Assembly: GCA_026002855.1 (NCBI GenBank) | Contig: BPGD01000001.1 | Location: 186,001-250,000, forward strand | Length of the DNA stretch: 64,000 bases | Origin: Bryobacteraceae bacterium | GTDB lineage: Bacteria; Acidobacteriota; Terriglobia; Bryobacterales; Bryobacteraceae | Reading direction: 5' to 3' | In this document: positions 16,393-40,398 of the stretch, one piece after another | How positions within the stretch are numbered: position 1 is the first letter of the stretch | Layout of the letters: every line of letters begins with the position of its first letter | The notes under the pieces: model-generated | The model's input: the letters and a program-made list of their open reading frames with translations, nothing else | Databases searched by the model: none | What the model was told of the DNA's origin: nothing | Translations under genes and position numbers: made by a program

Positions 16393-16424
16393 GGCGGCGG
16401 ATCCTCTCATTCGGTGCAACTCCC

Positions 16425-19655: not shown

Positions 19656-19906
19656 GAGTGTTTTCACCGTCCGAACGGGCATCTTACTACGACCCCAGGC
19701 TCACCTGCTGAGCCAGCAACCCCAGTACACTGGCCCCAGCATGAGATGCCTCCGTTCGGCGCACCCCAAAATCCGGCTCGCATCAGTCCACAGAGGGAAC
19801 GGCCCCGGGCGTCTCCTGCACTCCAGGCTCCGGGTCTCACCACTAACCCGGTGGCCGTCGCAATGTCGCGAAGAACCTGTACCAGCCTAACTTGAGGAGA
19901 ATCGTC

Positions 19907-20569
19907 ATGTCCGATCCTGTCACCGACTGGACCAGCTTTGCCGCCTGGGCGGATCTCCGCCGCAACGACCAACGGGACTTCTGCCCCTTCTGGAATGAGC
20001 CGCTTACGCCGGAAACGCGCTTCCTCTACTACTCGACCACCGCTCCGTTGCCCTGCGCCGCCTTCGCCGGCCTGTACTCGGCCTGCCCCAACTGGCGTAT
20101 TCTGGCCTCGCAACTCCGCCATGACATCCTGCCCGAATGCTACGGCATCTACCTGTGCCGGCGCGAATGGGCCCGGAGCGATGATCCGATGACAGCGGAA
20201 GAGATCTTTCGCGGCGCCCTGGAGGCGGAGGTGTGCTGGTGCGACGAGTTGCCCCTCATGCAGGCCGTCCTGATTGAGGTCGACAAGGCGCTGGCCGCAG
20301 CCGACGAAGCCGCCGGCTGGCCGCATCTGGTGGAGGCCTGCCGGATCTTCAATCACGACTGGCGCACCTCCGGCTGGCTCTTCGAGCTGAAGATCTTTGC
20401 CGCGCTCCAGGACCTGATGGCAGACCTCGGCTACTTCAAAAACGGAGCCTACCTCGTCGACGACCCGGACGACCCCGATGATGCCGGACTTCTGGCGCAA
20501 CACTGCTTCCAGGATCCGGAAGCCAACCGCAAACTGCGGCGGTATCTGGCGGAATTCGTCCGCCTGTGA
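19907..20569 (+). CDS. hypothetical protein divergent from the defence operon
   Basis: The 220-aa product starts MSDPVTDWTSFAAWADLRR, with GAGGAG 8-13 nt upstream deciding the start. It is acidic and Trp-rich and has no transmembrane segment or recognised motif. Cysteines are scattered (DFCPFWNE, VCWCDEL), without a clear metal-binding spacing. It shares a roughly 250-bp intergenic region with the DUF499 operon, which runs the other way, so the two could be co-regulated. No function can be assigned. Confidence 0.65.
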   Translation: MSDPVTDWTSFAAWADLRRNDQRDFCPFWNEPLTPETRFLYYSTTAPLPCAAFAGLYSACPNWRILASQLRHDILPECYGIYLCRREWARSDDPMTAEEIFRGALEAEVCWCDELPLMQAVLIEVDKALAAADEAAGWPHLVEACRIFNHDWRTSGWLFELKIFAALQDLMADLGYFKNGAYLVDDPDDPDDAGLLAQHCFQDPEANRKLRRYLAEFVRL

Positions 20570-22589: not shown

Positions 22590-23105
22590 TGGACATCCCG
22601 AAGGAAGGCCGACATCGGACTCATGGCGCAGCGAGCCGCACGCCGAGCAATGGCTGCTGGCTTCCGTGGCCGCGCCCGAGCGGCGGAGCCGACATGAGTC
22701 CTGGCTGTCGAACCTGCCGGCGGAGACACCGCTCAACAAGCGGGTCGAACTGGCCAACCACCGCTGGATCCTCGAGCGAGACGATCCGGAGTTGACGCAG
22801 GAGCTCGCGGCTTTCGAGGGCCGCTCGTGGCGGGGCTTTCACCACCACGCGACAATCGGCGTGGCGGCTGATGAGTTTCTCGTGACCGAGCGGAGCCGAA
22901 TTTCGGCCTCGGCGCGTGCCAACCAGCTCGATCTCACCCTGCCGCCGCAGCCGGAAGGAAACCGGCCGCGGGGGAGCGAGAAAACCGGGACAGTGCGTTG
23001 AGCCATTCTCGATCGCGAGCCTGCGCCAGCGGCTGGCCAAGGCCATCGCCAGGCAGCTTCCCTGCTGCCCTTCTTGCGGGGCAAGACGTTTATGACCCAG
23101 TAGCA
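22590..23105 (+). pseudogene. IS701-family transposase remnant, copy A
   Basis: The plus strand encodes ESWLSNLPAETPLNKRVELA and, further on, FEGRSWRGFHHHAT. These are the characteristic C-terminal segments of IS701-family DDE transposases, including the conserved E in RWILERDDPELTQELAAF. The frame is shifted upstream (the SEPHAEQW part lies in another frame) and the 5' part is unrecognisable, so it is inactive. A closely related copy is at 38745-39222. Both end in the same sequence, GACGTTTATGACCCAGTAG, which probably marks the element's end. Confidence 0.7.
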
Positions 23106-23146
23106 TTAAGAATCGAGCAGAAACTGTCCAAACTTTGGGGGCCACC

Positions 23147-23515: not shown

Positions 23516-24127
23516 TCACGACGCCATGCGGGCGAGTGCAGGCGAGAACCGCCGGTAGAATTCGTCCCGATAGAGCGCGAGACGGTAGACCGTCCAGTGC
23601 CGCCCGTTGAGGAAGCGGTGCCTACAGAATTTGCCCTCGATGCGAAGCCCGGCTCCCAGCAATGCATCAAGACTGGGCCGGTTGTACTCGAACACGTCGC
23701 AATACAGCTTGTGGAACGGATAATAAGTGAACAAATGGTGAACAAACAGTAGCGCGGCGCGCGCCGCGATTCCTTTGCTGCGGCTGCCCGGCTCCACGAA
23801 TGCGGTGACAAAGGCGTAGCCATCCAGCAGATTGGCCTCGTACGAGTAGATGAAGCCCACCCGCCGGCCGGAGTGGAGAATCATAAAAAACAGGTGAAAG
23901 TAGCTGCGCAGGCGCGCTGTAAGAGCCTGAACAAACTCCTCTTGCGAGAGGATGTCTTTACGCATCGTCCACAGGTGTAATGAGGAAGGATCGGCCTCCC
24001 ACTGATGCAGGAGTTCCAAATCGGTGCGGCACAGCGGGGCCAGGGACAAGCCCCGGCAAGCGAGCCCGACTGGCGACACTGTCGGGTATGTCTGCGAGAC
24101 GCAATCAGAAGGCATTATCGGCGGCAT
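23516..24127 (-). CDS. GNAT-family N-acetyltransferase
   Basis: The 203-aa protein matches the RimJ/RimL-like GNAT fold. It has a helical opening with LCRTDLELLHQWEADPSS, a central GRRVGFIYSYEAN strand, the acetyl-CoA-binding turn PGSRSKGIAARAALLFVHHL (a variant of the Q/R-x-x-G-x-G/A loop), and late strands KLYCDVFEYNRPSLDALLGAG and KFCRHRFLNGRHWTVYRLAL. AAGGAGAAG lies just before the ATG. It follows a 66-aa gene on the same strand with an 85-nt gap and is divergent from the large system operon. The substrate is unknown; acetylation of a protein or small molecule is possible. Confidence 0.75.
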   Translation of the reverse strand: MPPIMPSDCVSQTYPTVSPVGLACRGLSLAPLCRTDLELLHQWEADPSSLHLWTMRKDILSQEEFVQALTARLRSYFHLFFMILHSGRRVGFIYSYEANLLDGYAFVTAFVEPGSRSKGIAARAALLFVHHLFTYYPFHKLYCDVFEYNRPSLDALLGAGLRIEGKFCRHRFLNGRHWTVYRLALYRDEFYRRFSPALARMAS

Positions 24128-24563: not shown

Positions 24564-24797
24564 ATGGCTGCATGGGAATGGCGGCAAGAACGAAGCGAAT
24601 CCGAACCCGGCTCGGTCATTGAGGTTCCAGGCTTGCCCGAACTCTTTGAGCAACTTTGCGTGGCCTATCCGATGCTTTCGCGGGACTCGGTGCGCCGCCT
24701 ACTCCGCCTGCCCCCGCAGATTCTGGCGCAAACCCGTGACGCTGCCAAGCAAGCGGAACCATGCCCCAAGGTGGGCATGCCTGACGGGAGAACATAG
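24564..24797 (+). CDS. 77-aa hypothetical protein, first gene of the NACHT operon
   Basis: GGAGG 6-10 nt before the ATG decides this start over the in-frame ATG at 24543. The product MAAWEWRQERSESEPGSVIE and onward is soluble, with a leucine-rich helical middle (ELFEQLCVAYPMLSRDSVRR) and two cysteines. No family is recognised. It ends 6 nt before the HerA-like ATPase gene, so the two are almost certainly co-translated, and a small partner or adaptor of the ATPase is a reasonable guess. Confidence 0.6.
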   Translation: MAAWEWRQERSESEPGSVIEVPGLPELFEQLCVAYPMLSRDSVRRLLRLPPQILAQTRDAAKQAEPCPKVGMPDGRT

Positions 24798-24803
24798 CCC
24801 GCA

Positions 24804-27257
24804 ATGTTGCAGATCCCATACGTACATATTGAGCCATCCTGTAACCAATGGCGCGCCGCGGTCGGTTTCCGGCTAACTGAACTGCTCTCCCAGCGCCTCG
24901 AGGGAGACAATGTCGCCGCGCGCATGCGCCTGTTGGCGGACGTTCACCAGCGCAGCGCGCGTCTGGCGGAGCTAATCGCAGCCCTGGAAGGGCCGGTGTC
25001 GGTTGAGATCCACCTGGCAAGTTGGCCGTCCCTGGAAGCCGAGCGCTCCGGCAAAATCGCGATCGCCCTCAGGCTCACTGTCGAAGCGGCGGCGCAGGAT
25101 GCAGCGGTAAGCACTTGCCTCTCGCACTACATCGGCCTGCAAGCTGCGCTCGCAACGCACTGGCAGGAAGCTTGGTTCACCCCACTTGCCGACGGCGCCG
25201 AGTTCCGGACGATGTTCCGCCCTTTCGCGCCCTATGCGGCAGTCAGCCTGGAGCGCAGGAGGGCGCGGCTAACGCTGGGTGAACCCTTCCGTTGTGACTC
25301 GGAACCAATTGGTTTCCATCCCCAGTCTCGACCCGGCTCGGCGCCGCTGGTCGTGGAACATTTGTTCCCATGGACGCCCAGTGGCGATGACTGGAATTCG
25401 CTGCTGGCAATGCTGCTCGGTTGGCCCACTCCCCAGTGGCTTGTTGTGCGGATGGTAACCCCGGTCAAGGCCGAGCCCCACCTGGAGCAGTTGCGGACGA
25501 CCCTGAAAAGCTGCGAACAGTTCTTGGCCGGGGCTGCAAGCGACCAGGTAATCTTTGCCGCCCAAGCCGACCAACTCCGCCGCCTCAGCTTGGTGCGCCT
25601 CGCTGAACTGAACCATCGGGTGGTCGGCATGGCAGTGCTGCTATTGGCGCCAGGGGAAGTGGATCCGATGCTGGCCTCGAGCGTTGGGCAATGTATTTCG
25701 CCCGGTCCTGCCCGCGGTCCCGACAGCGAACTGCTTGCAGGCGGTTTCTCCGTCTCTCCTTGCTGTGTGCGGCGCGCTCGCGAACCGTTCTTTTTGCCGC
25801 ATACCGAACCTTTCGCGCTAACCGAGGCCGCTTGCGCCTTCCGTCTGCCCTTGATCGCCGGCCGTGAGGACTTCGGACTGCCCGTGCGCAGAAGCCGGAC
25901 GTTGCCGTCGGACTTGCCAAGGCCAGCAAGCACGGCGCCGGGCTTCCTGCTGGCAATTAACCGGCACCGGGGCGTTGACCGCCCCATTCGGGTTTCCTTG
26001 CACCACCGATTCAAGCACGAAATCATCCTGGGAATGACGGGAACCGGGAAGTCTACCCATCTCCACGAGCTAATTCAGCGTGACCTCGATGCGGGGCACG
26101 GGGTTTGCCTGATTGATCCTCACGGCGAGCTGGCCGACGCGCTGCTCGATCGTTTTCCGAGGCAAAGGGAGGAAGACCTGATCCTTATAGATTTGGCCGA
26201 CCACGACTCGTGCCTGCCACTGAACTTCTTACGCTGGCGAACGATCCAAGAGAGAGACCTCGTCGTGGACGACCTCTATAACGCCTTTGACCGCATCTAT
26301 GATCTTCAGAAAATGGGGGGCCCCATCTTCGAGCGCTATTTTCGGGGCGCACTGCGGCTGTTGATGGGCGATGACCCCGATGCCAAGCCCGTCTTCACGC
26401 TGTTGGAGCTGCCGCTGTTTTTCCAGAACAGGGATTTCCGCCAGTACCTGGTACGGCGGATCCGCGACCCGCAACTGGCCGATTTTGTCGAAGAGGCCGA
26501 GGCCGTAAGCCACTCTGACCAATGGAGTCTCCCCAATCTCGCGCCCTACATCACCGGCAAGTTTACGCGCTTCCTGCAAGACGACCTGCTCCGCCGCATT
26601 GTGGGTCACGGGGAGATGAAACTGGATTTCTGTCAAATACTGGACCAACAGAAAGTGCTGATCTTGAAGCTCGGCCGCGGGCGATTCGGAGCGCAAGCCA
26701 CGGACATGCTCATGGGGATGCTGTTGAGCCGGTTTCGCTGCGTGGTGATGGCGCGGGCCGCGATCCCGCACGGCGGCCGCAGACCGTTTTTTCTGTATGT
26801 CGACGAAATCGGCTCACTGGCGAGCGATCCCAACTTCGCGCATCTGCTCTCGGAGGCCCGCAAGTATGAGTTGGGATTGGTGCTGGCCACGCAATACGCC
26901 AAACAGCTCGCGGGCGGCGGCTCGACCAACTTGCTGTCAGCCGTGCTGGGCAATGTGGGGACCGTAGCCTGCTTCCGGGTGGGGGTCGAGGATGCGGAGT
27001 TGCTGGCGCCGGTGTTTGCGCCCTATCTGACACCCCAGGACCTGATGGATCTGCCCAATTTTGAAGGCTACCTGCGACTTCATCTCAACCACAGCCCGAC
27101 GCGCCCCTCGAGTATTGTGACGCAAAAGCTCGAGAGGCCCGTTCCGCCGGGCCGCGCCCGTGAGCTCAGCGAGCGGAACCGGGCCCGTTGGATGGTGACG
27201 GCGAAGGAATGCGAGGAACGGATAGCCGAGCGCCGACACTTTATACGACGGCTCTGA
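24804..27257 (+). CDS. HerA/TraG-like DNA-pumping ATPase
   Basis: The 817-aa protein has an N-terminal half of about 380 residues with no recognised motif. A HerA/VirB4/TraG-type ATPase core follows: Walker A GMTGTGKSTHLHEL with K416, the paired segment VCLIDPHGELADALLDRFP, Walker B FFLYVDEIGSLASD with D667-E668, and the sensor-like LGLVLATQYAKQL. Such hexameric ATPases pump DNA in conjugation, in DNA-end processing with NurA, and in several anti-phage systems (for example with SIR2 or DUF4297 partners). Here no nuclease follows. It is 6 nt downstream of a small gene and 77 nt upstream of the sigma-factor gene, so it appears to lead the operon functionally. A mobilisation function for the island is the main alternative. 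Confidence 0.8.
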   Translation: MLQIPYVHIEPSCNQWRAAVGFRLTELLSQRLEGDNVAARMRLLADVHQRSARLAELIAALEGPVSVEIHLASWPSLEAERSGKIAIALRLTVEAAAQDAAVSTCLSHYIGLQAALATHWQEAWFTPLADGAEFRTMFRPFAPYAAVSLERRRARLTLGEPFRCDSEPIGFHPQSRPGSAPLVVEHLFPWTPSGDDWNSLLAMLLGWPTPQWLVVRMVTPVKAEPHLEQLRTTLKSCEQFLAGAASDQVIFAAQADQLRRLSLVRLAELNHRVVGMAVLLLAPGEVDPMLASSVGQCISPGPARGPDSELLAGGFSVSPCCVRRAREPFFLPHTEPFALTEAACAFRLPLIAGREDFGLPVRRSRTLPSDLPRPASTAPGFLLAINRHRGVDRPIRVSLHHRFKHEIILGMTGTGKSTHLHELIQRDLDAGHGVCLIDPHGELADALLDRFPRQREEDLILIDLADHDSCLPLNFLRWRTIQERDLVVDDLYNAFDRIYDLQKMGGPIFERYFRGALRLLMGDDPDAKPVFTLLELPLFFQNRDFRQYLVRRIRDPQLADFVEEAEAVSHSDQWSLPNLAPYITGKFTRFLQDDLLRRIVGHGEMKLDFCQILDQQKVLILKLGRGRFGAQATDMLMGMLLSRFRCVVMARAAIPHGGRRPFFLYVDEIGSLASDPNFAHLLSEARKYELGLVLATQYAKQLAGGGSTNLLSAVLGNVGTVACFRVGVEDAELLAPVFAPYLTPQDLMDLPNFEGYLRLHLNHSPTRPSSIVTQKLERPVPPGRARELSERNRARWMVTAKECEERIAERRHFIRRL

Positions 27258-27334
27258 CCCCGCGAGCCTCAAATGGCCGGCTGTTGAGCTGCTTGTTGAA
27301 GCGTCGTAAACTTGCCTTGAAAGGCTCGCATTCC

Positions 27335-28096
27335 ATGGCGGTGAACACCCAACCATCCGATGAGGATCTGGTCCAGCGGTATTACGCGTGCGACGATGCA
27401 GCGTTAGATGAGTTGCAGGCGCGATACCGGCGTCAACTTTATGCATTTTTTACAAGTAGTTGCGGCGACGCGACAGAAGCAGAAGATCTCGCGCAGGAAA
27501 CCTTAATAAAAATTATTTATACGAAAGGCAGAAACCAGGCTAGGTTCCAGCCGGGGAGCGGCTCTTTCCGCAACTGGCTTTTCAGCGTTGCGACTAACGT
27601 ATTGTATGACGCCATCCGCAGGAAGCAGCCTACGAAGCCGCTAGCCGGGGATGAAAGGGAAGAGAGCGGTAAAGGACTACGTTCGTCCGGCAGGGGGTCG
27701 GTGGAGGATTCTGGCCCCGGCCCGGAGAAGCTTGCCATAGCCAACGAACTTCTGGACGTTCTGCTGGGTTGCCTTGTCCAACTCACGGATGACCGCCGCG
27801 ACGCCGTGATCTTGGTATACCAACTGCGGTTCACTGCTGTGGAAGCCGGGGTCATCATGAATAGAGAGCCCAATGCGGTGTATCAGTTGCTGCACAATGC
27901 CATCAAAGATCTAAGGCCATGTTTGTGCAGCCACGGATACACATCCCGACAAGAAATAGATCCTGAGGCTTTGGAAACTGCCAACGCAGATAGGCTGGAC
28001 GAGTTCATTTCAATGTTAAGCTCTGGAACGAAAATCCGTTTAAACACATGGCAACAGACACAACGACGTCAAAAGAAAGGGACCGAGTATGAGTAA
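27335..28096 (+). CDS. ECF-like RNA polymerase sigma factor
   Basis: The 253-aa protein starts at MAVNTQPSDEDLVQRYYACD, with AAAGG upstream; the longer frame is an artefact. Region 2 is LDELQARYRRQLYAFFTSSC, the acidic TEAEDLAQETLIKI segment and the -10 recognition part FRNWLFSVATNVLYDAIRRK. Region 4 is LTDDRRDAVILVYQLRFTAVEAG, with an HTH ending in NAVYQLLHNAIKDLR. There is a C-terminal extension of about 55 residues. It overlaps the next gene by 8 nt. That gene encodes a Cys/His-rich protein of anti-sigma type, so the pair probably forms a sigma/anti-sigma switch controlling this operon. Confidence 0.85.
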   Translation: MAVNTQPSDEDLVQRYYACDDAALDELQARYRRQLYAFFTSSCGDATEAEDLAQETLIKIIYTKGRNQARFQPGSGSFRNWLFSVATNVLYDAIRRKQPTKPLAGDEREESGKGLRSSGRGSVEDSGPGPEKLAIANELLDVLLGCLVQLTDDRRDAVILVYQLRFTAVEAGVIMNREPNAVYQLLHNAIKDLRPCLCSHGYTSRQEIDPEALETANADRLDEFISMLSSGTKIRLNTWQQTQRRQKKGTEYE

Positions 28097-28826
28097 AGAT
28101 GAGATCACGCTGGCGGAAGCCTTGAGCCTACTCTGGGAGCGCGAGGTGCAAAACGCCCCGGATCGGCATCCCGCGCAGACCGACGCGTGCCTGCCTCTGC
28201 CGCGTTTTGCCCCGTGGGCCATCGAAGGGTGGACCGATGCGGAGCGGGCACACGTAGCAGGCTGCACCAGCTATTGCCAGCGCATGCTGGGATTGTTCTG
28301 GCGCGAGGACCATCCGCCCATCGAAGATCTGGTGGATTACGCCACGGGACGGTACCCTTACCGCGCGGCGATGGAGTTTCACTTGGAGCACGATGGCTGT
28401 CTGCGGTGTGGACTGCTGGTTCGCGTTCTCGCTAGCCTGGGGCAACTGTTGGGTGAGGTCCGGGGTCTGGCTGTGGCTTATTCTCAAGGTGTGGCGGCGC
28501 CGGTGGTGACCGAGGCAGCCACATTTGCCAAGCTCCGCAAGCCATTTTACTTGCGCCAGGCTTCCGAGGACGGCCAGCTGATCGTCACGCTGGTGGAAAC
28601 GGATCCCCCGGAGCATGAGTTGAAGGTCCACGTCGAAGCGCCGCGCGTTACCGAACCGGGATGCAGGGCCCGGGTTACTCTGGCCGGCGAGACGGCCACG
28701 CTCGAGCAAGAGTTGGCGCTACAAAAGACCGAGTACGGTTGGGAGGCCTCAAGCTCGTTCGGCAAGTTCGAGGAGGCGGCTGCCCGGCTGGGCGCGGACT
28801 GGGTGCTGGTCGCGGCATTGATTTAG
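28089..28826 (+). CDS. putative zinc-binding anti-sigma-like protein
   Basis: This 245-aa protein is encoded by a gene that overlaps the sigma gene (ATGAGTAA), the usual layout of a sigma factor and its antagonist. Two Cys/His clusters occur: HVAGCTSYC near residue 56 and HLEHDGCLRC near residue 97. The second follows DLVDYATGR, which resembles the start of the zinc-finger anti-sigma domain. The spacing is not the canonical H-x3-C-x2-C in either case. The last 100 residues look beta-rich and could be a sensor or carboxy-terminal domain. No transmembrane segment is present, so it would act in the cytoplasm. It ends 5 nt before the NACHT gene. Confidence 0.6.
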   Translation: MSKDEITLAEALSLLWEREVQNAPDRHPAQTDACLPLPRFAPWAIEGWTDAERAHVAGCTSYCQRMLGLFWREDHPPIEDLVDYATGRYPYRAAMEFHLEHDGCLRCGLLVRVLASLGQLLGEVRGLAVAYSQGVAAPVVTEAATFAKLRKPFYLRQASEDGQLIVTLVETDPPEHELKVHVEAPRVTEPGCRARVTLAGETATLEQELALQKTEYGWEASSSFGKFEEAAARLGADWVLVAALI

Positions 28827-28831
28827 CACCC

Positions 28832-31800
28832 ATGGCAGAGGGAGAGATGCTCATCGGGGAGTTGCAGCAGACGCTCTCGAAGCTAGATCAAGGGGAGTAT
28901 CTCCTCTGGCAGATCCTAGCCGGGGGTTATGCCTTGCTGCCGCGGGCCTTGCGGGAGGCCATAAAAGCCGCTGAGCCCGATGCCGGGCTCATCTCCAAGC
29001 TGGAAACCTGCTACGAGCAACTCCAAAGCTCCGGTGCCAGCCAAGCGATCCAGAGATACTGGGCGGAGCTGAAGCAAAACGACATTGACGCAGACCGGCT
29101 GCACCGCAACGCCTGCGCGCTGGTGGCCACGACGCTGGCCTCGGCCTATGCCCGGCAGAGTCCGCTGACAAGAGAAAGCGTAGCGGGCGCCGAGAAGTGG
29201 GCGCAGAGAGCGGCCAAGCTATTGGGCGGTGGAGCTGAAGACAGTCTGCCAAGCTCGCTCGCCGAAGGCCTGAGCTGGACGAACCCGCCCTCGGCGAGGG
29301 ATTTGCTCGAGCAGATCTATGCGCGCCTGGCAGAGGCAGGGTGGAAAGTCACCGCGGCGCGGCGGTGGAGCCTGTACTGGCTGGGCTGTGACCACGGAGA
29401 GCGCCGATTGCAAGTACCGGTGGCCTGCGTGGTCAACGGGCAGGGCCACTTGGGCGACTTGCATCTGGAGTGGCTGGCGGATCAGCCCAGGGTGCTGGTC
29501 GAGCACCCGGAGATGGCTCTGTGGCCCATCGAGCCGAGCTTTCTGGAAACCCTGGAGCAGGCGCATCTTGCAGCGGGAGGCGCCGTCGTCTGGCGCTTTG
29601 CCTTTCGCCAGCCTGAGCAATTAGGCCGGATCCCCTTGCGGGGGAACTCGGCCGGAGGGGCAGCGGCCGTGGGATTTCGGTTGCTCGCCCAAGGCGATCC
29701 CTATGATGCCGGGTGCGTGATTGTATCGGGGCTGACGCTTACGGATTGCCTGCAGGCCGTGGGCGACGAGCAAGCCAAGCTGCAAGCAGCCGCGCGGGCC
29801 GGCCTGAAGCGAGCGGTAGTGGCGCCGGGCACGACCCTCGATCAAGCGGCGCAGGAATCGCTCGTTAGCTCGGGTCTTCAGATCCAGTCGAAGCCCAACG
29901 TCGCAGAGGCCTGTCGCTTTGCGTCCGATCTGCCGCGATGGCTGATCGCCTACTTTGAGCAGGTAGCCGGGCAAGCCGATGCCGCCGCGCCGCCGTATCT
30001 GGCGGGGCGCAAGCCGAGCGAGCTTTATGTGGAGCCGGACGTGCTGGTGGGGGTGCGCCGGGCGAAGGTGCGCCGGCCGGGGGCGGAGACGGCTCCCGCT
30101 GCAGAGGAGTCTTCAGGGCCTCGTTATCTGCCGGACACGGTGCTGGAGGTGGGCGAGCAATACCCGTACGGGTTCGAGGTGGAGCAGAGCGAAGAGCGGC
30201 GGTCGTGGGAGCAAGCGCGGCGGAGGCTGGCGGACACGGATCGTGCGGCGGTGGTGCTGGGGCCGCCCGGACAGGGCAAGACGCAACTGGTGCGCATGAC
30301 GGCGCGGGCTCTGGCGCTGGAGGCGAAGGCGGCCCTGATAGAACAGCGGGAAAGCTTCGACCGGGTGGAGCTGCCGGTGGTAGTGCGCTGCCAGGAGCTG
30401 GCTGGGTTATCCAGCGAGCAGGAACTGGAGCGGGGGCTGGAGCAGCTACTAGCGGATAAAGGGGTTGATCGGCAAACCGCCAGCTACGTGGCCGGACAGT
30501 GGAAGCAGAGTCGTTGCTGGCTGTTTCTGGACGGATTGGACGAGGTTGCCGACCCGGCGCAACTGCAAGAGCTGTGGCAAGTGCTCGCTCGTGGAGAATG
30601 CCGGGTGGTGCTGACCTCGCGGCCGTATGCCTATCGAGGCGGGTTGCCGTTTCGCCGGGTCGAATACCGGCTGGCGCCGCTGACCGGCAAGCAATGGCGG
30701 GAGCTGATCGGACGCTGGTATCGGGACGATGCGAACAGAGCTGCCAGCTTGCTCCAGCAGATCGGGACGTCGGCTGCGCTGGAGCAGATGGCGCAGAACC
30801 CGCTGCTGGTGACGTTTGTGTGCTGGGTGGCGGAGCGTCATTCTGTCACCGCCGAGATGAGCCGCAGCCAGCTTTACGACCGCATCGTGCGCGATCTGTT
30901 AGCAGTGGACCGGCAGGGGACGCAGGACTTATCTCGGGCCGAAGCACTGCTGCCGCTGGTGCGCGAGATTGCCTGGCAGTGGTTCGAGCAGAGCCAGGGC
31001 AGGCGAGCGCTCACACACGAGCGGCTACGCGGTTGGATTACGAAGAGCGACCACAGGCCTTTGCCCAAAGGGTTGATGGTGAAGGAGGTGGCAACTCTTG
31101 CCCCGGCGCAGCAGGCTGATGCGATCATCGAGGAGCTGTCGCGGGAGAAGCGCCTGCTGGCCGCCTTCGAGCACGGTGGGTACCTAGCTTATATCTTTCC
31201 GCACCGCTCGATTTTGGAGTACCTGGCGGCGGCTGAGCTGGTCAAAAAGCTCGAGGGCATGGACCAAGAGCGTTGGTGGAAGTTCGTAGACCGCGTGGCC
31301 TGGGACCCGGGCTGGGAAAATGTGCAGGTGTTTACTGCAGGGCAGTTGGGCCGGGAGGCGAACCGCCTAGTCACGCAGTTGCTCAAGGGCCGCGACGACA
31401 TTTTGCGCCACCGGCTGGCGCTGGCGGCCGTGTGCCTGTCTGAGGTACCGGCGGGAATTCGGGACAAGGTTATGGCCAATCAAATCACTCGGCAGGTGTG
31501 GGATCTGTGTGTCAGTGCAAGCTGGGAAGTTCGTCAATTATTACATGTTCAGCGGGCGTGGATGGTGGCGAACCAGCTAAACGGGGAGGTTGAAGGGCTG
31601 TCGTCCCTACAGAAGCTGCTCGCGGTTCTGAAGGATGAGGACGAGATCGCGCGCTCATGGGCCGCCCACACTCTGAGCACACTCCCAGAGGCAGCGGCCC
31701 GGGACCCTCGAGTGATTGCAGGACTGCTCGAAGCTTTGAAGGACGAGGATCAGGATGTGTGCGTGCAAGCTGCCCTCGCTCTTGGCCTGCTCGGGGAGGC

Positions 31801-33160
31801 AGCGGCCCAGGATTGCCGAGTGATTCCGGCGCTGCTTGAAGCCCTGAAAGACGATCGTGGGTTTGTGCGCTACGTGGCTGCCGCGACTATGAGGTTGCTC
31901 ATGCAAGCAGGGGCGCAGGTGATTCCCGCGCTGCTCGAAGCCAGGAATGACACGGATTGGCGTGTGCGCCGGGCGGCTGCCGAGGCTCTGGGCGAGCTCG
32001 GGGAAGCCGCAGCCCAGGATCCTCGAGTGATTCCCGCACTGCTCGAGATGCTCAACGACGATAGTGAGGATGTGTGCAGGGCGGCTGCCGAGGCTCTGGG
32101 CGAGCTCAGGGAAGCCGCAGCCCAGGATCCTCGAGTGATTCCCGCACTGCTAGAGATGCCAAAGGACGAGCGCGAGAATGTGCTCTGTGCGGTTTCTCAT
32201 GCTCTGGGGAAGTTCGCGACAGCCGCAGCCCAGGGGCCTCGATTGATTCCCGCACTGCTCGAGATGCTGAAGGACGATGGCGAGGATGTGTGCGGGGCGG
32301 CTGCCGGGGCTCTGGGCGGGCTCGGGGAAGCGGCGGCACAGGATCGTCGCGTGATTTCGGCGCTGCTTGAAGCCCGGAAGAACGGGCACGAGATAGTGCG
32401 CATGGCGGCCGCTTGGGCTCTGGGCGGGCTCGGGGAAGCGGCGGCACAGGATCGTCGCGTGATTCCGGCGCTGCTTGAAGCCCTTAAGGATACTGATTGG
32501 CATGTGCGCGGGCATGCTGCCTTCGCTCTGGGCAGGCTCGGGAAAGTCGCAACCCACGATCCTCGAGTGATTCCCGCACTGGTCGTGATGCTACAGGACG
32601 AGCGAGCGTATGTGCGCATGGCGGCCGCCTGGGCTCTCGGCGAGCTCAAGCAAGCAGCGGCCCAGCATCTCCAGGTGATTCCAGCGCTCCTCGCCACATT
32701 GAAAGGTAAGGACGAGGAGGACGAGTATGTTCGCGACGAAGCTGCCGAGGCTTTGGGCAAGCTAGGGGAAGTAGCGGCCCAGGATCGCCAAGTAATTTCG
32801 GCGCTGCTCGAAGCCCTCGAGAACACGCATTGGAGTGTGCGCGGGGCGGCTGCCGAGGCTTTGGGCAGACTGGAGGAAGCAGCTACCCAGGATCACCGAG
32901 TGATTCCTGCCTTACTCAAGGCCTTAAAGGACGAGACGGAGATTGAGCGCGACAAAGCTGCCAAGGCTTTGGGCAAGCTAGGGGAAGGAGCGGCGCGAAA
33001 TCCAGGCGTCCTTGCTGACGTAAGGAAACAGCCACTGCGGCGACCCCACGTTCTCGCCATCGTCGACTGGGACCGCCGCGGGCTCCGCATTTTCCAGGAT
33101 TCTGGCGGTAATGGGCTCACGGTTCGCACAGTAGAAGAACTGGTCCACCCCGGCGCGTAA
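28832..33160 (+). CDS. Lon-like peptidase - NACHT NTPase - HEAT repeat protein
   Basis: The 1442-aa protein starts at MAEGEMLIGELQQ; the ATG five codons later has a stronger Shine-Dalgarno and is an alternative. Residues 1-165 are helical and unassigned. Residues about 170-345 resemble the Lon (S16) proteolytic domain: GNSAGGAAAVG gives the candidate nucleophile S273, and VGDEQAKLQAAARAGLKRAV gives K316. These lie 43 residues apart, as S679 and K722 do in E. coli Lon. The NACHT domain has Walker A VLGPPGQGKT (K483), Walker B LFLDGLDEV (D567) and VVLTSRPYAYRG as sensor 1. From residue 936 thirteen HEAT-like repeats of about 36 residues follow, then a 40-residue tail. NACHT proteins of this layout act as anti-phage sensors; here proteolysis is the likely output. 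It is one gene of a plus-strand operon and is followed by hairpins and small genes. Confidence 0.85.
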   Translation: MAEGEMLIGELQQTLSKLDQGEYLLWQILAGGYALLPRALREAIKAAEPDAGLISKLETCYEQLQSSGASQAIQRYWAELKQNDIDADRLHRNACALVATTLASAYARQSPLTRESVAGAEKWAQRAAKLLGGGAEDSLPSSLAEGLSWTNPPSARDLLEQIYARLAEAGWKVTAARRWSLYWLGCDHGERRLQVPVACVVNGQGHLGDLHLEWLADQPRVLVEHPEMALWPIEPSFLETLEQAHLAAGGAVVWRFAFRQPEQLGRIPLRGNSAGGAAAVGFRLLAQGDPYDAGCVIVSGLTLTDCLQAVGDEQAKLQAAARAGLKRAVVAPGTTLDQAAQESLVSSGLQIQSKPNVAEACRFASDLPRWLIAYFEQVAGQADAAAPPYLAGRKPSELYVEPDVLVGVRRAKVRRPGAETAPAAEESSGPRYLPDTVLEVGEQYPYGFEVEQSEERRSWEQARRRLADTDRAAVVLGPPGQGKTQLVRMTARALALEAKAALIEQRESFDRVELPVVVRCQELAGLSSEQELERGLEQLLADKGVDRQTASYVAGQWKQSRCWLFLDGLDEVADPAQLQELWQVLARGECRVVLTSRPYAYRGGLPFRRVEYRLAPLTGKQWRELIGRWYRDDANRAASLLQQIGTSAALEQMAQNPLLVTFVCWVAERHSVTAEMSRSQLYDRIVRDLLAVDRQGTQDLSRAEALLPLVREIAWQWFEQSQGRRALTHERLRGWITKSDHRPLPKGLMVKEVATLAPAQQADAIIEELSREKRLLAAFEHGGYLAYIFPHRSILEYLAAAELVKKLEGMDQERWWKFVDRVAWDPGWENVQVFTAGQLGREANRLVTQLLKGRDDILRHRLALAAVCLSEVPAGIRDKVMANQITRQVWDLCVSASWEVRQLLHVQRAWMVANQLNGEVEGLSSLQKLLAVLKDEDEIARSWAAHTLSTLPEAAARDPRVIAGLLEALKDEDQDVCVQAALALGLLGEAAAQDCRVIPALLEALKDDRGFVRYVAAATMRLLMQAGAQVIPALLEARNDTDWRVRRAAAEALGELGEAAAQDPRVIPALLEMLNDDSEDVCRAAAEALGELREAAAQDPRVIPALLEMPKDERENVLCAVSHALGKFATAAAQGPRLIPALLEMLKDDGEDVCGAAAGALGGLGEAAAQDRRVISALLEARKNGHEIVRMAAAWALGGLGEAAAQDRRVIPALLEALKDTDWHVRGHAAFALGRLGKVATHDPRVIPALVVMLQDERAYVRMAAAWALGELKQAAAQHLQVIPALLATLKGKDEEDEYVRDEAAEALGKLGEVAAQDRQVISALLEALENTHWSVRGAAAEALGRLEEAATQDHRVIPALLKALKDETEIERDKAAKALGKLGEGAARNPGVLADVRKQPLRRPHVLAIVDWDRRGLRIFQDSGGNGLTVRTVEELVHPGA
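31637..33030 (+). repeat. array of 108-bp repeats coding for 13 HEAT-like units
   Basis: The unit runs V-R-x-A-A-A-x-A-L-G-x-L-G-E-A-A-A-Q-D-x-R-V-I-P-A-L-L-E-A-L-K-D, about 36 codons. Some neighbouring units are almost identical in DNA: 32307-32376 and 32415-32484 differ at one base, and 31973 onward matches 32081 onward at the same 108-bp offset. Other units are divergent. Recent duplication or gene conversion inside the array is therefore likely, as expected for a fast-evolving recognition surface. Unit 3 is three to four residues shorter and unit 10 carries a small insertion. Confidence 0.8.
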
Positions 33161-33189
33161 GATTTTCCTTCCTGCCTGCGTTTCATCCT

Positions 33190-33225
33190 GTGGGGTAAAA
33201 CCCCACGATCTCCTCCACAAAGGAG
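33190..33225 (+). promoter_or_regulatory. tandem hairpins, the second covering a ribosome binding site
   Basis: GTGGGG-TAAAA-CCCCAC (33190-33206) is a perfect 6-bp hairpin. It is followed by CTCCT (33210-33214), which can pair with AGGAG (33221-33225), the ribosome binding site of the 59-aa gene starting at 33236. The pair lies between the NACHT stop codon and the small gene. It could uncouple or tune translation of the distal 59-aa/E1/66-aa genes, or be a target for an RNA- or DNA-binding protein. Confidence 0.45.
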
Positions 33226-33235
33226 CCACCGGGTG

Positions 33236-33415
33236 ATGCCAGAGGTCGTCTTGTCTGACCAACTGGGTTGTGCAGAGACCCTCGAGGAAGTTTTCAGCGC
33301 CGAGCTCGAGGCCGGAGAGAAAAAGCTCGCGCGATCGGAAGAATCCGAGCAGTCCAGGCAGGCCGCGCCAGCGAGCAAGCCGGCGGCAAGGATTCGGGTC
33401 TATGGCTTCGATTGA
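33236..33415 (+). CDS. 59-aa hypothetical protein, coupled to the E1-like gene
   Basis: AAAGGAG at 33219-33225 precedes the ATG. The product MPEVVLSDQLGCAETLEEVF and onward has one cysteine, an acidic helical middle (SAELEAGEKKLARSEESEQS) and ends RIRVYGFD. The stop codon lies 14 nt inside the E1-like gene, so translation is probably coupled. It has no di-glycine tail and I cannot call it a ubiquitin-like protein. The lone Cys and tight coupling to an E1-like enzyme make it a candidate substrate, carrier or partner. Confidence 0.55.
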   Translation: MPEVVLSDQLGCAETLEEVFSAELEAGEKKLARSEESEQSRQAAPASKPAARIRVYGFD

Positions 33416-34817
33416 AGCTCACGCGACCGCTCCATCTCATCCGGTACTCGGAGGCCGCCGGCTGGTGTTCGCGCGGGCAGCGTGGACGGCCCTGCTGAAG
33501 CGGCTGGAGCGCGATCCATCGGCCCCGCAGTTTTGCCCAGCCGGGCGGAGCCAGCCCGGCCACACCGCCGAATTGTTGGTGACGCAAGAGGGCCATTCCG
33601 CACAGTCTGTTCCACCACGAAGAGTGGTAGTCATTGCCGCGACGCGGCCGGGCGAGCTCGCAGCCCGTTTGCGCTCTCTGGGCCTGGAGCAACTGGGCGC
33701 GGACGTCGCTGCGGCGCTGGCTGTGGGCGTGGGCGCGGCCGCGGGACGGGTGGCGGGCCTGGCGCTTGGACCCCACGGAGCTAGCCCGCTAAGCAGCGTG
33801 CGGATTCTGATGAAAGGTCTGCCCGAGATCCCGCTGGCAGCTTCGCCCGGGATCGTGCCTTGGTCGCTGCCGGCGACGGAAGCCGAGCGCGCAGTGTGGT
33901 CGCGCAGCCTGGGGGCGCTGGGCGAGAGGGCATGGCGGCGCCTCGCCAGCTTGCATGTCGTCCAGATCGGCTGCGGGCGGACCGGCTCCCTCATGGCTGC
34001 ATCGCTAGCGCGCATTGGGATTCGCAACCTGACGCTGGTAGATCCGGATCGGCTGGAGGCGCATAACCTGGGCGAGATGGATCTGATGCGACCCCAACAG
34101 ATTGGCGATTTCAAGGTGTATGCCGCGGCCGAAGAGCTCGAACGCATGGCATACCGGTTGGGATGCGATGCGGGATCCCGGCTGAGCGTGGCGCCTCTCG
34201 CGGAGCCGGTGAGTTCGCTTAAAGCGCTGGAGGCCGCCAAGCGGGCTGATGTGCTGATCTCGTGCGTGGACAACGAAACGGCGCGGGCGGCCGTAGCGGT
34301 CCTTGCCCGGCTATACCTGAAACCGTTGCTGGACGTAGGTACGGCGGTCTTGGAAGAATCGGGGCGGCGTCATATGGGGGCAGACATCCGGCTGGTGATG
34401 CCCGATGAGTGCCTGCTCTGCGTGGGTGGCCTGAACGAGCCGGGGGTTGCCATGTCCCGCTTAATAGCGGCCCCAGAGGAGACCTCTGGCTTGGATTGGC
34501 GGCGGCACCGAGCCGGCAGCCTGCGCTCACTGAACACGGTGGCAGTCGGCTTGGGGTTGCGCTTGCTGGAGGAGCTGGCGGCCGGGCGGCGGGGCACGAG
34601 TGCGTGGGTCAGGGTGGAGTTTGAGGCGAACGGGCTGCCGTATTTGGAGGTGAGGGATAGCAGACGCCGGGAGCAATGCCCGCTGTGCCGTTACGGCGGC
34701 TGGGGAGACGACGGGATCAGCCGGTGCGTTCCGGAACTGGTCGGCGCCACTGCCTGGGAGCAGACAGACGGGCGAGCCAAGGATGAATTTGATGACACCG
34801 GAGGCACCCCGATATAA
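33402..34817 (+). CDS. ThiF/E1-like adenylyltransferase with degenerate JAB-like N-terminus
   Basis: The 471-aa protein starts at MASIEAHATAPSHP, with AAGGATT upstream. Residues about 15-130 (LVFARAAWTALLKRLERDPS, then AELLVTQEG) resemble the opening of JAB/MPN isopeptidase domains found next to bacterial E1 enzymes, but the metal-binding H-x-H and D are not visible, so it is probably inactive. The E1 fold begins with VVQIGCGRTGS (G190-x-G192-x-x-G195) and LTLVDPDRLEAHNLGE (D214, D216), the nucleotide-binding and adenylation segments. Cysteine pairs C337-x2-C340 and C426-x2-C429 match the ThiF/MoeB zinc site. It would adenylate the C-terminus of a partner protein. No E2 is nearby. A truncated, frameshifted copy lies at 39226. 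Confidence 0.8.
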   Translation: MASIEAHATAPSHPVLGGRRLVFARAAWTALLKRLERDPSAPQFCPAGRSQPGHTAELLVTQEGHSAQSVPPRRVVVIAATRPGELAARLRSLGLEQLGADVAAALAVGVGAAAGRVAGLALGPHGASPLSSVRILMKGLPEIPLAASPGIVPWSLPATEAERAVWSRSLGALGERAWRRLASLHVVQIGCGRTGSLMAASLARIGIRNLTLVDPDRLEAHNLGEMDLMRPQQIGDFKVYAAAEELERMAYRLGCDAGSRLSVAPLAEPVSSLKALEAAKRADVLISCVDNETARAAVAVLARLYLKPLLDVGTAVLEESGRRHMGADIRLVMPDECLLCVGGLNEPGVAMSRLIAAPEETSGLDWRRHRAGSLRSLNTVAVGLGLRLLEELAAGRRGTSAWVRVEFEANGLPYLEVRDSRRREQCPLCRYGGWGDDGISRCVPELVGATAWEQTDGRAKDEFDDTGGTPI

Positions 34818-34888
34818 GATTCCGGAGGCGGCCTTCGTTTACTCAAGTGAGCGCAACGCTCAAGAAACCAACGAAAGGAAAAAAGGCG

Positions 34889-35089
34889 ATGCCTGACCAC
34901 GACTATAAAAAGTTGGGCGACTTCATCAAGGGCATCGAAGACGGCAAGCGCGGCGAATACAACACCGGCCGCGACTACGTCCTCGAGCTGATCTCCCTCG
35001 GCTTCCTAGGCGGCCCGACGGTCGACGAGGAAGCTTATGACGAGGGCTACGTCCGGGGTAGAAAGCTTGCATCGTTTAGCAGCAAATAG
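34889..35089 (+). CDS. 66-aa hypothetical protein, last gene of the operon (copy 1)
   Basis: AAAGGAAAAAAGG precedes the ATG by a few bases. The product MPDHDYKKLGDFIKGIEDGK and onward is acidic and compact, with LELISLGFLGGPTVDEEAYD and a final YVRGRKLASFSSK. No family is recognised. A second copy at 40191 differs in few residues while several codons carry silent changes (for example the VDEEAYDEGY stretch), which points to selection on the protein. A small TGAGCG-CAA-CGCTCA hairpin (34848-34862) lies just upstream in both copies. A 15-bp hairpin follows the stop codon. Confidence 0.65.
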   Translation: MPDHDYKKLGDFIKGIEDGKRGEYNTGRDYVLELISLGFLGGPTVDEEAYDEGYVRGRKLASFSSK

Positions 35090-35095
35090 CGCGCC

Positions 35096-35131
35096 GTTGC
35101 CTGGCCCGCCTCCTCCGGCGGGCCAGGCAAC
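35096..35131 (+). terminator. 15-bp perfect hairpin after the 66-aa gene (copy 1)
   Basis: GTTGCCTGGCCCGCC and its exact complement flank the loop TCCTCC, 6 nt after the stop codon. No T-run follows, so it may be a strong structural end or a protein-binding palindrome as much as a Rho-independent terminator. The matching hairpin of copy 2 has the same arms with the loop inverted. Confidence 0.6.
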
Positions 35132-35832
35132 GGGCGAAGCTGCTTGCCGAGCCGTGTGGCTCGGCGGACATCCAGGATGGCGGAAGAAGGGCTTGGTATT
35201 TGCGGCAAATTTATGGGTCGAGTTGCCACAAGAAAGGGCGAATCTGGCTGAACAGTGTGCGCCGGGTGGTTCGATGAGACATGTTTGGGCGGCTTGAGGG
35301 AAGGAGTTTCGGGGCGGCTGACCGAAACAATGGGTTTGGTTGCAGAAGCTTGTGAACAGGCCAGCCCCGACATCAGCCGCATCCGATCGCCCCGAATCGC
35401 CATCGCATGGGGACTTCTCTGCACGCGTTCATCGAACGGGCGATTAAGGCGGGCTGTGAGGCGCGCACCGAGAGCCGGGAGGACTGCGCGTAGCTGCGGT
35501 GCAGCGGCTATGGCAACAAGCTAACCGTCCTGAGACAGTACCCCTCAACCCCGGCTGAATCCATGGCGGAGGTCCATCAGGCGTCCATAGAATAAGCGAA
35601 TCTAATCACAGGATAAGAGCATTTAATGTGACAAAGGCCATAATCTGTGGTAAAATCCTCTGCATTGACGGCAACCGTAAACAGGAAGGGCGCTACTCGG
35701 CGGGTCAATCCACGGCACCCCACCTGGGCCGTCCGGTTCCCATTCGGTTGGTTAATGTGCTGGAGTCCTTATCACCTCTGGAGTTGGCGGTAGAAAAGAG
35801 GGTGCGTCGCTGCAAAAAGAAGGAGCGGAGAG
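35132..35832. other. intergenic region; first 330 bp duplicated at 40435-40763
   Basis: To 35460 the sequence is nearly identical to the tail of copy 2, including a CCGAGCC-GTGT-GGCTCGG hairpin near 35147. Frames inside it are open in places but start poorly and carry no motif, so a non-coding RNA or attachment-type role is at least as likely as a peptide. The remainder contains the promoter of the TPR gene. Confidence 0.4.
35628..35656 (+). promoter_or_regulatory. sigma70-like promoter of the secreted TPR gene
   Basis: GTGACA and TAAAAT are separated by exactly 17 bp, each one base from consensus. The promoter reads toward the gene starting at 35833 and leaves a leader of about 170 nt. An overlapping GTG-initiated frame through it is rejected as a gene. 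Confidence 0.5.
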
Positions 35833-37251: not shown

Positions 37252-37517
37252 ATAGAGAATTGGTCCCGAGGCTTTGGGAATTATCAAGCACTATAGGCAA
37301 CTGTTTGGCGCATATCACAAAGATCAGCTCCGGCTCTATTTTACGAACCAGTCCCCCGCCCCACGATTTCCTTGGACACTGAATGGCGCTCAGGAGAATC
37401 CAGATGTCGAACACGAAACAACCGGATTCCGGGCCCGCTTGAAGGACCGGAGGGCGACTGAAGCGGGGCCGGAATCCGGCCGCGGCGGCAAGGGCCGCTC
37501 GCTCGGCCAAGCGCAAG

Positions 37518-37793
37518 ATGAGCGTGGTGCTGGAGCTGCTCCGCGGCGCGGATCTGGAGTCCACGAGCCGCAAGTACGGCGTCACGGCGGCAACCCTGTC
37601 GGAGTGGCGCGAGGCCTTCCTGGCAGCCGGCGAGGAGGGGCTCAAGATCCGGCAGGAGGATCTGGTCGACGAGCAGGGCCGACGGATGAAGTCGGTGATC
37701 GCCGAGCTGGCGATGGAGAACGAGCTGCTGCGGGAGCGCATCCGGCGGATGGAGGACAAGGAGCCTTTTCTGCGGTGGAGGTCGAAGCGATGA
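37518..37793 (+). CDS. IS3-family transposase OrfA
   Basis: The HTH part runs MSVVLELLRGADLESTSRKY followed by GVTAATLSEWREAFLAAG, then a leucine-zipper-like end (IAELAMENELLRERIRRMED). A more usual start at 37404 (MSNTKQPDSGPA) with a good ribosome binding site runs in the same frame but hits a TGA at 37440. Either initiation is internal or the N-terminus was lost by a nonsense mutation. It overlaps orfB by 4 nt, where programmed frameshifting or coupled re-initiation is usual. Confidence 0.75.
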   Translation: MSVVLELLRGADLESTSRKYGVTAATLSEWREAFLAAGEEGLKIRQEDLVDEQGRRMKSVIAELAMENELLRERIRRMEDKEPFLRWRSKR

Positions 37794-38683
37794 GCCATGC
37801 CCGGTCGGCCTCCACGGGACGCTGCTACGGGCGGGCTCGGGTGCTGAAGGCGTGGGGCCTGCCGCGGTCGACGTTCTATCAGCGGCGCCGCCTGCATGCC
37901 TCGCCTCGCCTGCCCGCCAGGCGCGGCCCGAAGACGCGCTACACGGATGAGCAACTCGTCGGCGAGACCCGGCGCGCGATCCGGGAATCGCCCTTCCACG
38001 GGGAAGGGCGCCGCAAGGTGTGGGCGCGGCTGCGCCATTGTGACGTGCGCACCTCCTTGCGGCGCGTGCTGCGCCTATTGCGACAACACTTACTGCTGGC
38101 GCCGCAGCGGCAGCCACAGCCCGTCGAGCCGAAGCGGCACGACGGCACCATCCTCGCCCGACGGCCCAACCAGATGTGGGGCATCGACGCCACGGCCGGC
38201 TTCACTCTCCGGGACGGGCAGGTGGCCATCTTCGCCATGATCGACCACGGCTCGGCCTGCTGCCTCGGCATCCACGTGGCCAAACGCGGCACGCGGTTTG
38301 AGGCGCTGGAGCCGGTGCGCCAGGCTGTGCGCGAACAATTCGGCGGCTTCTCCGAGGGCATCGCCCTGGGCGTTGGACTGCGTCATGACCATGGCTCACA
38401 ATTCATGAGCGACGACTTCCAGCGCGAGATCCGCTTTCTCGGCCTGGAGTCCTCTCCGGCCTTTGTCCGTGAGCCCGAAGGCAACGGCTGTATCGAACGC
38501 TTCTTCCGTACCCTCAAGGACGAGCTTGGCTGGGTGCGGCACTTCGAGACCCTGGAGGAACTGGCCGAAGCGCTCGAAGAATTCCGCCAGCGCTACAGCG
38601 AACACCGGCTCGTCGAGCTCCTTTACTTTCAATTCCCGCGGCAGGCTCACCAGGCCCTGCTTGCCGTCGAGCCTGCTGCATGA
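37790..38683 (+). CDS. IS3-family transposase OrfB (DDE integrase core)
   Basis: The 297-aa product carries an HTH_21-like region (RRAIRESPFHGEGRRKVWAR) and an rve integrase core with the DDE triad: D in MWGIDATAGF, D in LRHDHGSQF and E in GNGCIERFFRTLKDE. The C-terminal segment (FRQRYSEHRLVELLYFQFPR) is typical of the family. All catalytic residues are present, so the transposase could be active if OrfA is made. Confidence 0.88.
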   Translation: MSHARSASTGRCYGRARVLKAWGLPRSTFYQRRRLHASPRLPARRGPKTRYTDEQLVGETRRAIRESPFHGEGRRKVWARLRHCDVRTSLRRVLRLLRQHLLLAPQRQPQPVEPKRHDGTILARRPNQMWGIDATAGFTLRDGQVAIFAMIDHGSACCLGIHVAKRGTRFEALEPVRQAVREQFGGFSEGIALGVGLRHDHGSQFMSDDFQREIRFLGLESSPAFVREPEGNGCIERFFRTLKDELGWVRHFETLEELAEALEEFRQRYSEHRLVELLYFQFPRQAHQALLAVEPAA

Positions 38684-38744: not shown

Positions 38745-39222
38745 TGGCGCAGCGAACCGCACGCCGAGCCTTGGCTGCTGACCGAGTCGCCGCGCGGGGG
38801 TGGCGGAGCCGACATGAGTCCTGGTTGTCGAACCTGCCAACCGACCCATCGCTCAAGCAGCGGGTCGAGTTGGCCAGGCAGCGCTGGATCATCGAGCGGG
38901 ACGATCGGGAGTTGACGCAGGGGCTCGCGGCTTTCGGGGTTGCTCGTGGCGGGACTTTCACCACCACGCGACACTCTTCATCGCAGCGTGTGGGCTCCTG
39001 GTGACCGAGAGGAGCCGTTTTTCCCCTCAGCACGCGCCGGCAGGCTCGCTCTGGCCGAGCCGCCACAGCCGGACCAATGCCGGCCGCGGGGGAGCGAGAA
39101 AACTGGGACAGCGCGTTGAGCCATTCTCGATCGCGAGCCTGCGCCAGCGGCTGGCCAAGGCCATCGCCAGGCAGCTTCCCTGCTGCCCTTCTTGCGGGGC
39201 AAGACGTTTATGACCCAGTAGT
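38745..39222 (+). pseudogene. IS701-family transposase remnant, copy B
   Basis: It is homologous to copy A at 22590-23105, with NRDDWRSEPHAEPWLLTE in one frame and ESWLSNLPTDPSLKQRVELA in another. It is truncated on the left by the IS3 end and has further frameshifts. Its right end (ATGACCCAGTAG) abuts the truncated E1 copy exactly, so IS701 arrival or deletion removed the 5' part of that gene. Confidence 0.7.
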
Positions 39223-39225
39223 ACT

Positions 39226-40118: not shown

Positions 40119-40190
40119 AAGATTCCGGAGGCGGCCTTCGTTTAGTAAAGTGAGCGCAACGCTCAAGAACCAACGAAAGGAAAAAAGGCG

Positions 40191-40388
40191 ATGTCTGATT
40201 ACGACTACAAAAAGTTGGGCGACTTCATGAAGGGCGTCGAAGACGGCAAGCGCGGAGAATACAACACCGGCCGCGACTACGTCCTCGAGCTGATCTCCCT
40301 CGGCTTCCTAGGCGGCCCGACGGTCGATGAAGAAGCATATGACGAGGGATACGTCCGGGGTAGAAAGATTGCCTCGTCTGGCAAGTAA
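40191..40388 (+). CDS. 65-aa hypothetical protein, copy 2
   Basis: This paralogue of the 34889 gene has the same AAAGGAAAAAAGG leader. It starts MSDYDYKKLGDFMKGVEDGK and ends YVRGRKIASSGK. It is intact although the adjacent E1 copy is broken, with conservative replacements and silent changes relative to copy 1. It could still serve the intact E1-like protein of copy 1 or act independently. Function unknown. Confidence 0.6.
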   Translation: MSDYDYKKLGDFMKGVEDGKRGEYNTGRDYVLELISLGFLGGPTVDEEAYDEGYVRGRKIASSGK

Positions 40389-40398
40389 GTAGCGCGCC

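Follow-up and report, generated by a model that had tools for sequence, protein, structure and literature searches.

Within a 64,000-nt stretch of a Bryobacteraceae chromosome (the window: contig BPGD01000001.1, positions 186,001 to 250,000), eight tightly packed plus-strand genes at 24564-35089, here called A to H, place an extracytoplasmic function (ECF) sigma factor (C) and an anti-sigma-like protein (D) directly upstream of a protein that combines a Lon-type domain with NACHT and HEAT domains (E). We propose that the cluster encodes a sensor-protease-sigma switch with attached output genes, a reading that we regard as evenly balanced between right and wrong. The host is a soil-type bacterium of the Acidobacteriota, with a genome of 4.44 Mb in one contig. 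Its eight genes had been called earlier, from the letters of the DNA alone (the original prediction), and both the calls and the tight packing were confirmed by the coordinates and by the intergenic distances, which from A-B to G-H are 6, 77, -8, 5, 75, -14 and 71 nt. The original prediction had, however, left out a GNAT gene that belongs to the conserved set as judged from the related genome described below, and it had passed over what a Lon domain beside a sigma/anti-sigma pair may mean. The features of the cluster are as follows.

24564..24797, plus strand: gene A, 77 amino acids (aa), of unknown function and without a family
24804..27257, plus strand: gene B, 817 aa, predicted VirD4/TraG (HerA-superfamily) ATPase with a unique N-terminal domain
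27335..28096, plus strand: gene C, ECF sigma factor with regions 2 and 4, 253 aa counted from the ATG; the open reading frame (ORF) opens with a TTG at 27188
28089..28826, plus strand: gene D, 245 aa, anti-sigma-like protein with His/Cys motifs and a C-terminal beta domain
28832..33160, plus strand: gene E, 1442 aa, Lon-type domain, NACHT and HEAT
33236..33415, plus strand: gene F, 59 aa, low-complexity, with a C-terminal RVYGFD, overlapping the start of G
33402..34817, plus strand: gene G, 471 aa, JAB-E1 (BubCD-like) homologue with a degenerate JAB region and an altered E1 arginine
34889..35089, plus strand: gene H, 66 aa, with two G-rich YxxGxxxGR-like motifs
35091..35133, plus strand: hairpin 3' of H (-47.1 kcal/mol, z -6.3)
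23516..24127, minus strand: GNAT acetyltransferase (Pfam Acetyltransf_3), an accessory member in divergent orientation

No family could be assigned to A, D, F or H. The hairpin is likely the end of the transcript, and without a T-run it would be weak as an intrinsic terminator.

Homologues of D, counted at E below 1e-3, marked eight loci in seven genomes: the window, the RSWS6 metagenome-assembled genome (MAG; JAPWUP01, here G465) twice, the palsa_130 MAG (PMTT01, here G461), and the genomes G432, G398, G045 and G033. Several of the compared loci belong to draft or MAG assemblies. A sigma or sigma-like gene lies immediately 5' of D in all eight; the seven loci that continue beyond D all have a protease within two genes 3' of it (Lon-like in six, CHAT in one), and six of them have a NACHT/STAND partner. 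Pairwise identities of D, Lon and NACHT gave the same ranking of genomes, with G465 closest and G461 and G432 much further away. The claim of the original prediction that the genes act as one system, which routine separation of the genes in homologous loci would speak against, stood for sigma, D and protease, which are found together in every locus, but not for the full set, as G is present at four of the seven loci and the A/B/F/H/GNAT set at only two. Judged from gene content, the core comprises the ECF sigma factor, D, the Lon-type protease and NACHT-HEAT, and the remaining genes would be accessories that vary among loci.

The arrangement around this core differs from genome to genome. One contig of G465 (C188; L078 1-3564) carries sigma, D and E followed by vWA, PP2C and Ser/Thr-kinase genes, a TerY-P-like triad that replaces the E1 and HerA genes. 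The order in G461 is G, a 178-aa gene, sigma, D, a separate Lon-like gene, a 261-aa gene and a separate NACHT-HEAT gene, and G432 has sigma, D, a separate Lon-like gene and two NACHT proteins beside the G orthologue, with a third NACHT gene further off. Because Lon and NACHT-HEAT are separate neighbouring genes in these two genomes, E is best read as a fusion of linked parts. A sigma-like and a D-like gene precede a protein of 2086 aa that has both Lon-like and P-loop segments in G398, where the sigma-like protein has no Pfam match and was assigned through position and weak similarity only. The G045 locus (L139 7810-14870) encodes a sigma factor with weak region-4 matches, D, an 833-aa ORF and a CHAT peptidase, while the G033 contig ends inside D, with a sigma-like gene directly 5'.

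The closest relative also carries the accessories. All eight families and GNAT occur in G465 at 30-63% identity, distributed over contig C4 (A, B at 57%, H, GNAT at 63%, sigma at 44% and the first 86 residues of D) and contig C213 (E at 53%, F at 30% and the start of G). C4 ends and C213 begins with a 127-nt stretch that recurs exactly in the third contig, C188, so that the join of C4 to C213 is a graph inference from a collapsed 764-nt D/E segment; it is supported by the gene content of the window, and the opposite pairing is not fully excludable. Since this MAG has the whole set, the eight genes appear to be inherited as a unit, as judged from these two graph-joined contigs. The two sigma-D-E systems of G465 share an identical segment of about 764 nt across D and E (L076 1-127, L077 1-127, L078 7835-8598, as deduced from the 127-nt k-mer contig ends), which suggests recent gene conversion or duplication.

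Protein C matched Pfam Sigma70_r2 (53.6 bits) and r4_2 (26.4 bits), both over the cut-off. Among six D homologues, a first motif (H55/C59/C63) is invariant in the alignment, with the H-x3-C followed by its second Cys at x2 spacing in four sequences and at x3 or x4 in two, and a second motif (H98/C104/C107, H..C-x2-C) is kept in five. One D homologue matched NrsF, a negative regulator of sigma F (E 8e-4). C and D are likely a sigma/anti-sigma pair, as the original prediction had supposed.

The Lon-NACHT-HEAT architecture assigned earlier to E was also borne out. A helical N-terminus is followed by a Lon-type Ser-Lys protease domain (about aa 150-400), NACHT (about aa 470-630; 37.2 bits against a Pfam cut-off of 26.7) and HEAT repeats (about aa 960-1400; HEAT_2, 292.8 bits). 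The NACHT P-loop (GPPGQGKT) and Walker B motif (LFLDGLDEV) are both present. The Lon region matched genuine Lon genes of about 800 aa in many relatives, and its profile matched solved LonB structures (Archaeoglobus fulgidus, E=0.001) with Ser aligned to Ser and Lys to Lys. Across six Lon-like sequences, reaching down to 19% identity with the window copy, 17 columns are invariant, among them those of the GxS serine and of the lysine that form the predicted catalytic dyad.

29648..29650, plus strand: codon of the predicted catalytic Ser273 of the Lon domain, in an invariant GxS (six homologues, 19-60% identical)
29777..29779, plus strand: codon of Lys316, the predicted catalytic lysine of the Lon domain (K191 in the alignment fragment), unchanged across these six homologues and aligned with the conserved Lys of A. 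fulgidus LonB

A 108-bp tandem repeat at 31963-32907 (8.7 copies) encodes near-identical HEAT repeats, which suggests fast repeat turnover in the putative sensor.

What the comparison shows is gene order, conservation, co-inheritance, the protease dyad, the NACHT P-loop and Walker B motifs and the motif loss in G (see below); the course of events that follows is inferred. The HEAT repeats and NACHT NTPase of E would sense a trigger, perhaps phage-related, and the NACHT-HEAT part would assemble upon activation, as STAND proteins do. Assembly would bring together or open the fused Lon-type Ser-Lys protease domain, which would cut the zinc-finger-like anti-sigma D bound to C. The released ECF sigma factor would then transcribe its targets, probably including defence genes of the island, with A, B, F, the pseudo-JAB-E1 protein G, H and GNAT as accessory or output genes. 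An antiviral response is suggested by position: the Hma defence system lies in the window, and DISARM-type DrmD/DrmMI genes are defence neighbours of the locus in G461.

This model draws on two CRISPR systems whose sigma, inhibitor and protease correspond to the trio described here, and both of their protease folds occur behind sigma-D. The Lon-SAVED protein CalpL cuts the anti-sigma CalpT, freeing the ECF sigma CalpS (PMC11417357, PMC12751052), and the CHAT protease Csx29 cuts Csx30, the inhibitor of CASP-sigma (PMC10028731). As in the Calp system, an ECF sigma, an anti-sigma and a Lon-type Ser-Lys protease presumed to cut the anti-sigma are co-encoded, but the sensor there is a SAVED domain that binds cyclic tetra-adenylate (cA4), whereas here it would be NACHT-HEAT; a Pfam scan of E gave no SAVED match, the anti-sigma here combines His/Cys motifs with a beta domain, and the accessories differ. 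No CRISPR genes were seen in the loci, where no search was aimed at them. The type III-E system (Craspase) likewise uses a protease to lift inhibition of an ECF sigma, and G045 pairs sigma-D with CHAT, but Craspase is RNA-guided, in contrast to the Lon and NACHT-HEAT combination here. bNACHT proteins such as bNACHT25 share with E a NACHT STAND NTPase, a repeat sensor and an N-terminal effector, but in E the place of the effector is taken by a Lon-type protease with a sigma/anti-sigma pair alongside.

An ECF sigma has also been proposed as the final transcriptional output of EACC/caspase conflict systems (PMC8195603). These systems (PMC8195603, PMC7159879) resemble the present one in having a peptidase, regulated conflict-system logic and an ECF sigma output; they differ in that the text of PMC8195603 names no Lon domain and that of PMC7159879 no sigma factor, while the loci described here have a constant D and TerY-P or E1 accessories. 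A transcriptional output as such is thus not a new idea; what appears new is the fusion of an NLR-like (nucleotide-binding leucine-rich-repeat-like) receptor to a Lon-type protease next to a sigma/anti-sigma pair of its own. In keeping with the original prediction, which had recognised no named system in it, the combination was not found described among open-licence papers, which is weak evidence of absence. We suggest, more tentatively than the switch itself and somewhat short of an even balance, that these loci form a bacterial family of NLR-like receptors with transcriptional output, in which NACHT-HEAT would act through Lon to destroy the anti-sigma and free the ECF sigma, with interchangeable outputs (pseudo-JAB-E1, VirD4-like ATPase and small proteins, or a TerY-P triad) and proteases (Lon or CHAT), as a non-CRISPR parallel to Calp and Craspase. 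Bacterial NLR-related proteins are usually thought to work via a toxic effector, and the wiring proposed here is not known among such receptors. If true, the control of ECF sigma factors by Lon and CHAT proteases, so far shown in CRISPR systems, also occurs with other sensors. The module is small, its catalytic residues are predicted and its presumed substrate D is named, which makes the proposal directly testable.

Several results weigh against the switch. No common ECF-type motif was recovered by a two-block promoter search upstream of the genes. The Lon_C match of E (16.4 bits) is under the Pfam cut-off of 21.1 and three of six members match Lon_C, so we name the domain divergent Lon-like; its homology is to Lon in general and not to CalpL specifically. 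The window copy of D matched no curated Pfam anti-sigma model, zf-HC2 included. AlphaFold models were too weak for use, both for the Lon region and N-terminus of E (mean pLDDT 53) and for D (mean pLDDT 60); fold searches with them returned nothing usable, and Foldseek matches to MATH and CBM folds were disregarded.

Zinc-finger anti-sigma factors are often direct sensors. An alternative explanation is that C and D merely regulate expression of the operon, for instance through zinc or redox sensing by D, and that E works on its own as a bacterial NLR, with the Lon domain as a toxic effector that cuts other cell proteins. NACHT proteins with N-terminal effectors are indeed a known type of phage defence (PMC12169576). 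We consider this reading rather unlikely, though it is the rival to take most seriously, because a protease stays 3' of D in all seven continuing loci, including G461 and G432, which encode NACHT separately, and G045, which has CHAT; sigma-D is accompanied throughout by a protease, which in the CRISPR systems is the enzyme that cuts the inhibitor.

A different reading starts from G, which the original prediction had called a ThiF/E1-like protein. The ThiF match (83.7 bits) and the membership of the JAB-E1 clade stood: the best relatives of the G profile in the PDB are Citrobacter BubCD (E=1.4e-14), and like BubCD/Bil-type proteins G has an N-terminal JAB-derived region and a ThiF/E1 domain with two CxxC pairs. 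The label of an enzyme fared less well. When G was aligned with 12 family members from the phylum, the JAB HxHP..SxxD segment was missing from the window and G461 proteins, and the E1 NxxR arginine, retained in all 12 other members, was replaced (NLGEM in the window, NCGEM in G461). The G432 orthologue also lacks the JAB segment and reads SLAEG, so that the arginine is replaced in all three full-length proteins, and the JAB segment is absent from the N-terminal part of G in G465. Neither a ubiquitin-like nor an E2 gene adjoins G in the window, whereas Multi_ubiq and Prok-E2_E genes adjoin a relative with an intact motif in L083. For these reasons G is better read as a scaffold or an altered enzyme than as an E1 of the ubiquitin type, active conjugation by G is unlikely, and F and H are unlikely to be conventional ubiquitin-like substrates. 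It therefore seems very improbable to us that F or H serves as a modifier which G activates and couples to proteins of phage or host, even with relatives such as that in L083 and with F lying immediately 5' of G and ending similarly in G465. The similar tails of F overlap the G start codon and may reflect that overlap only; F was rejected as a Pup- or MccA-like peptide substrate since conservation of a tail that shares nucleotides with the G start codon is not assignable.

The cluster could also regulate a mobile element, with B as the coupling protein of an integrated element and sigma, D and E controlling transfer or maintenance instead of immunity. The ATPase core of B resembles VirD4/TraG, similar ATPases occur on plasmids and beside CHC2-type primase-like genes (L087, L091), and the region is rich in insertion sequences (IS) and ends at a tRNA-Arg. 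However, no relaxase, mating-pair or integrase gene was identified beside the operon among the window proteins scanned (part of the accessory-region genes), of 122 plasmid records with B-like ATPases 113 are non-mobilizable, and B is absent beside most core loci, which makes this reading improbable. Chance packing of unrelated genes, which the abundant IS elements and partial duplications of the region might favour, is the least credible explanation of all: a second genome has the eight families and GNAT as well, and the core keeps its gene order in other genomes. A duplicated copy of H with 10 synonymous and 6 non-synonymous codon changes likewise argues that the cluster is beyond chance.

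Under the proposed switch, the genes outside the core would be accessory or output genes, and they have homologues in G465. An A homologue (41% identical, E 5e-8) lies immediately 5' of B in L076. B matched TrwB_AAD_bind (37.5 bits) and DUF87 (29.9 bits), both over the Pfam cut-off, and is accordingly classed by these matches as a VirD4/TraG-type coupling-protein-like ATPase of the HerA superfamily, in agreement with the HerA/TraG-like ATPase of the original prediction; its full-length homologue was found in G465 only. The F homologue in L077 (30% identical) is in the same place and ends in RIYGLD. H has a homologue in L076 (56% identical, or 61% over 54 aa) and no match in the PDB. The GNAT homologue (63% identical) lies between H and sigma (L076 2050-1379). 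Pairs of VirD4/HerA-like ATPases of about 400-500 and 970-1030 aa were also seen at L091 7830-12837, adjoining a CHC2-primase-like gene, and at L086 6257-10637. At L081 13464-13872 the G N-terminus occurs a second time in truncated form, preceded directly by an F-like ORF of 58 aa that ends in HGFD.

Among named relatives, the nearest homologues are in Bryobacteraceae and Bryobacterales MAGs, which puts the host in Bryobacterales within the Acidobacteriota. D and Lon profiles run over 199 genomes across the phylum, in which only the best candidates from a first look were scored, found the window only. A peptide-pattern scan of GTDB genomes with full E gave zero matches, alignment of its N-terminus returned only three already-known loci, and no relatives were found in viral contigs (Lon alignment) or plasmids (E N-terminus). 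ThiF matches in 95 of 101 genomes were mostly generic, and in the loci opened around these no neighbouring NACHT, sigma or Lon gene matched the query set. At the present sampling and sensitivity, the module seems restricted to Bryobacterales.

The original prediction had placed the cluster in a genomic island beside another defence operon, and this setting was confirmed as an IS-rich accessory region, in which the cluster lies between two features.

9770-19682: Hma defence system (HmaA/B/C), the neighbouring defence operon
42821-42897: tRNA-Arg (tct), near the point where the accessory region gives way to conserved backbone

Leftward, window 1-19999 matched three same-genus genomes only in IS copies, short fragments and the Hma genes, and the backbone shared with same-genus genomes extends rightward from the tRNA-Arg near 42.8 kb, which places the cluster in the accessory region. 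The Hma genes have about 82% DNA identity in one same-genus genome, at a different location. The tRNA was the sole match of an Rfam scan. IS elements and partial duplications are plentiful: 39224-40763 is a 95% identical partial duplicate of 33909-35460, in which the 3' part of G is frameshifted and H is intact (40191-40388, 91% identical protein), and an 84% direct repeat of 488 bp (22624-23111 and 38745-39229) flanks the cluster region near IS transposase sequences at 37274-38683.

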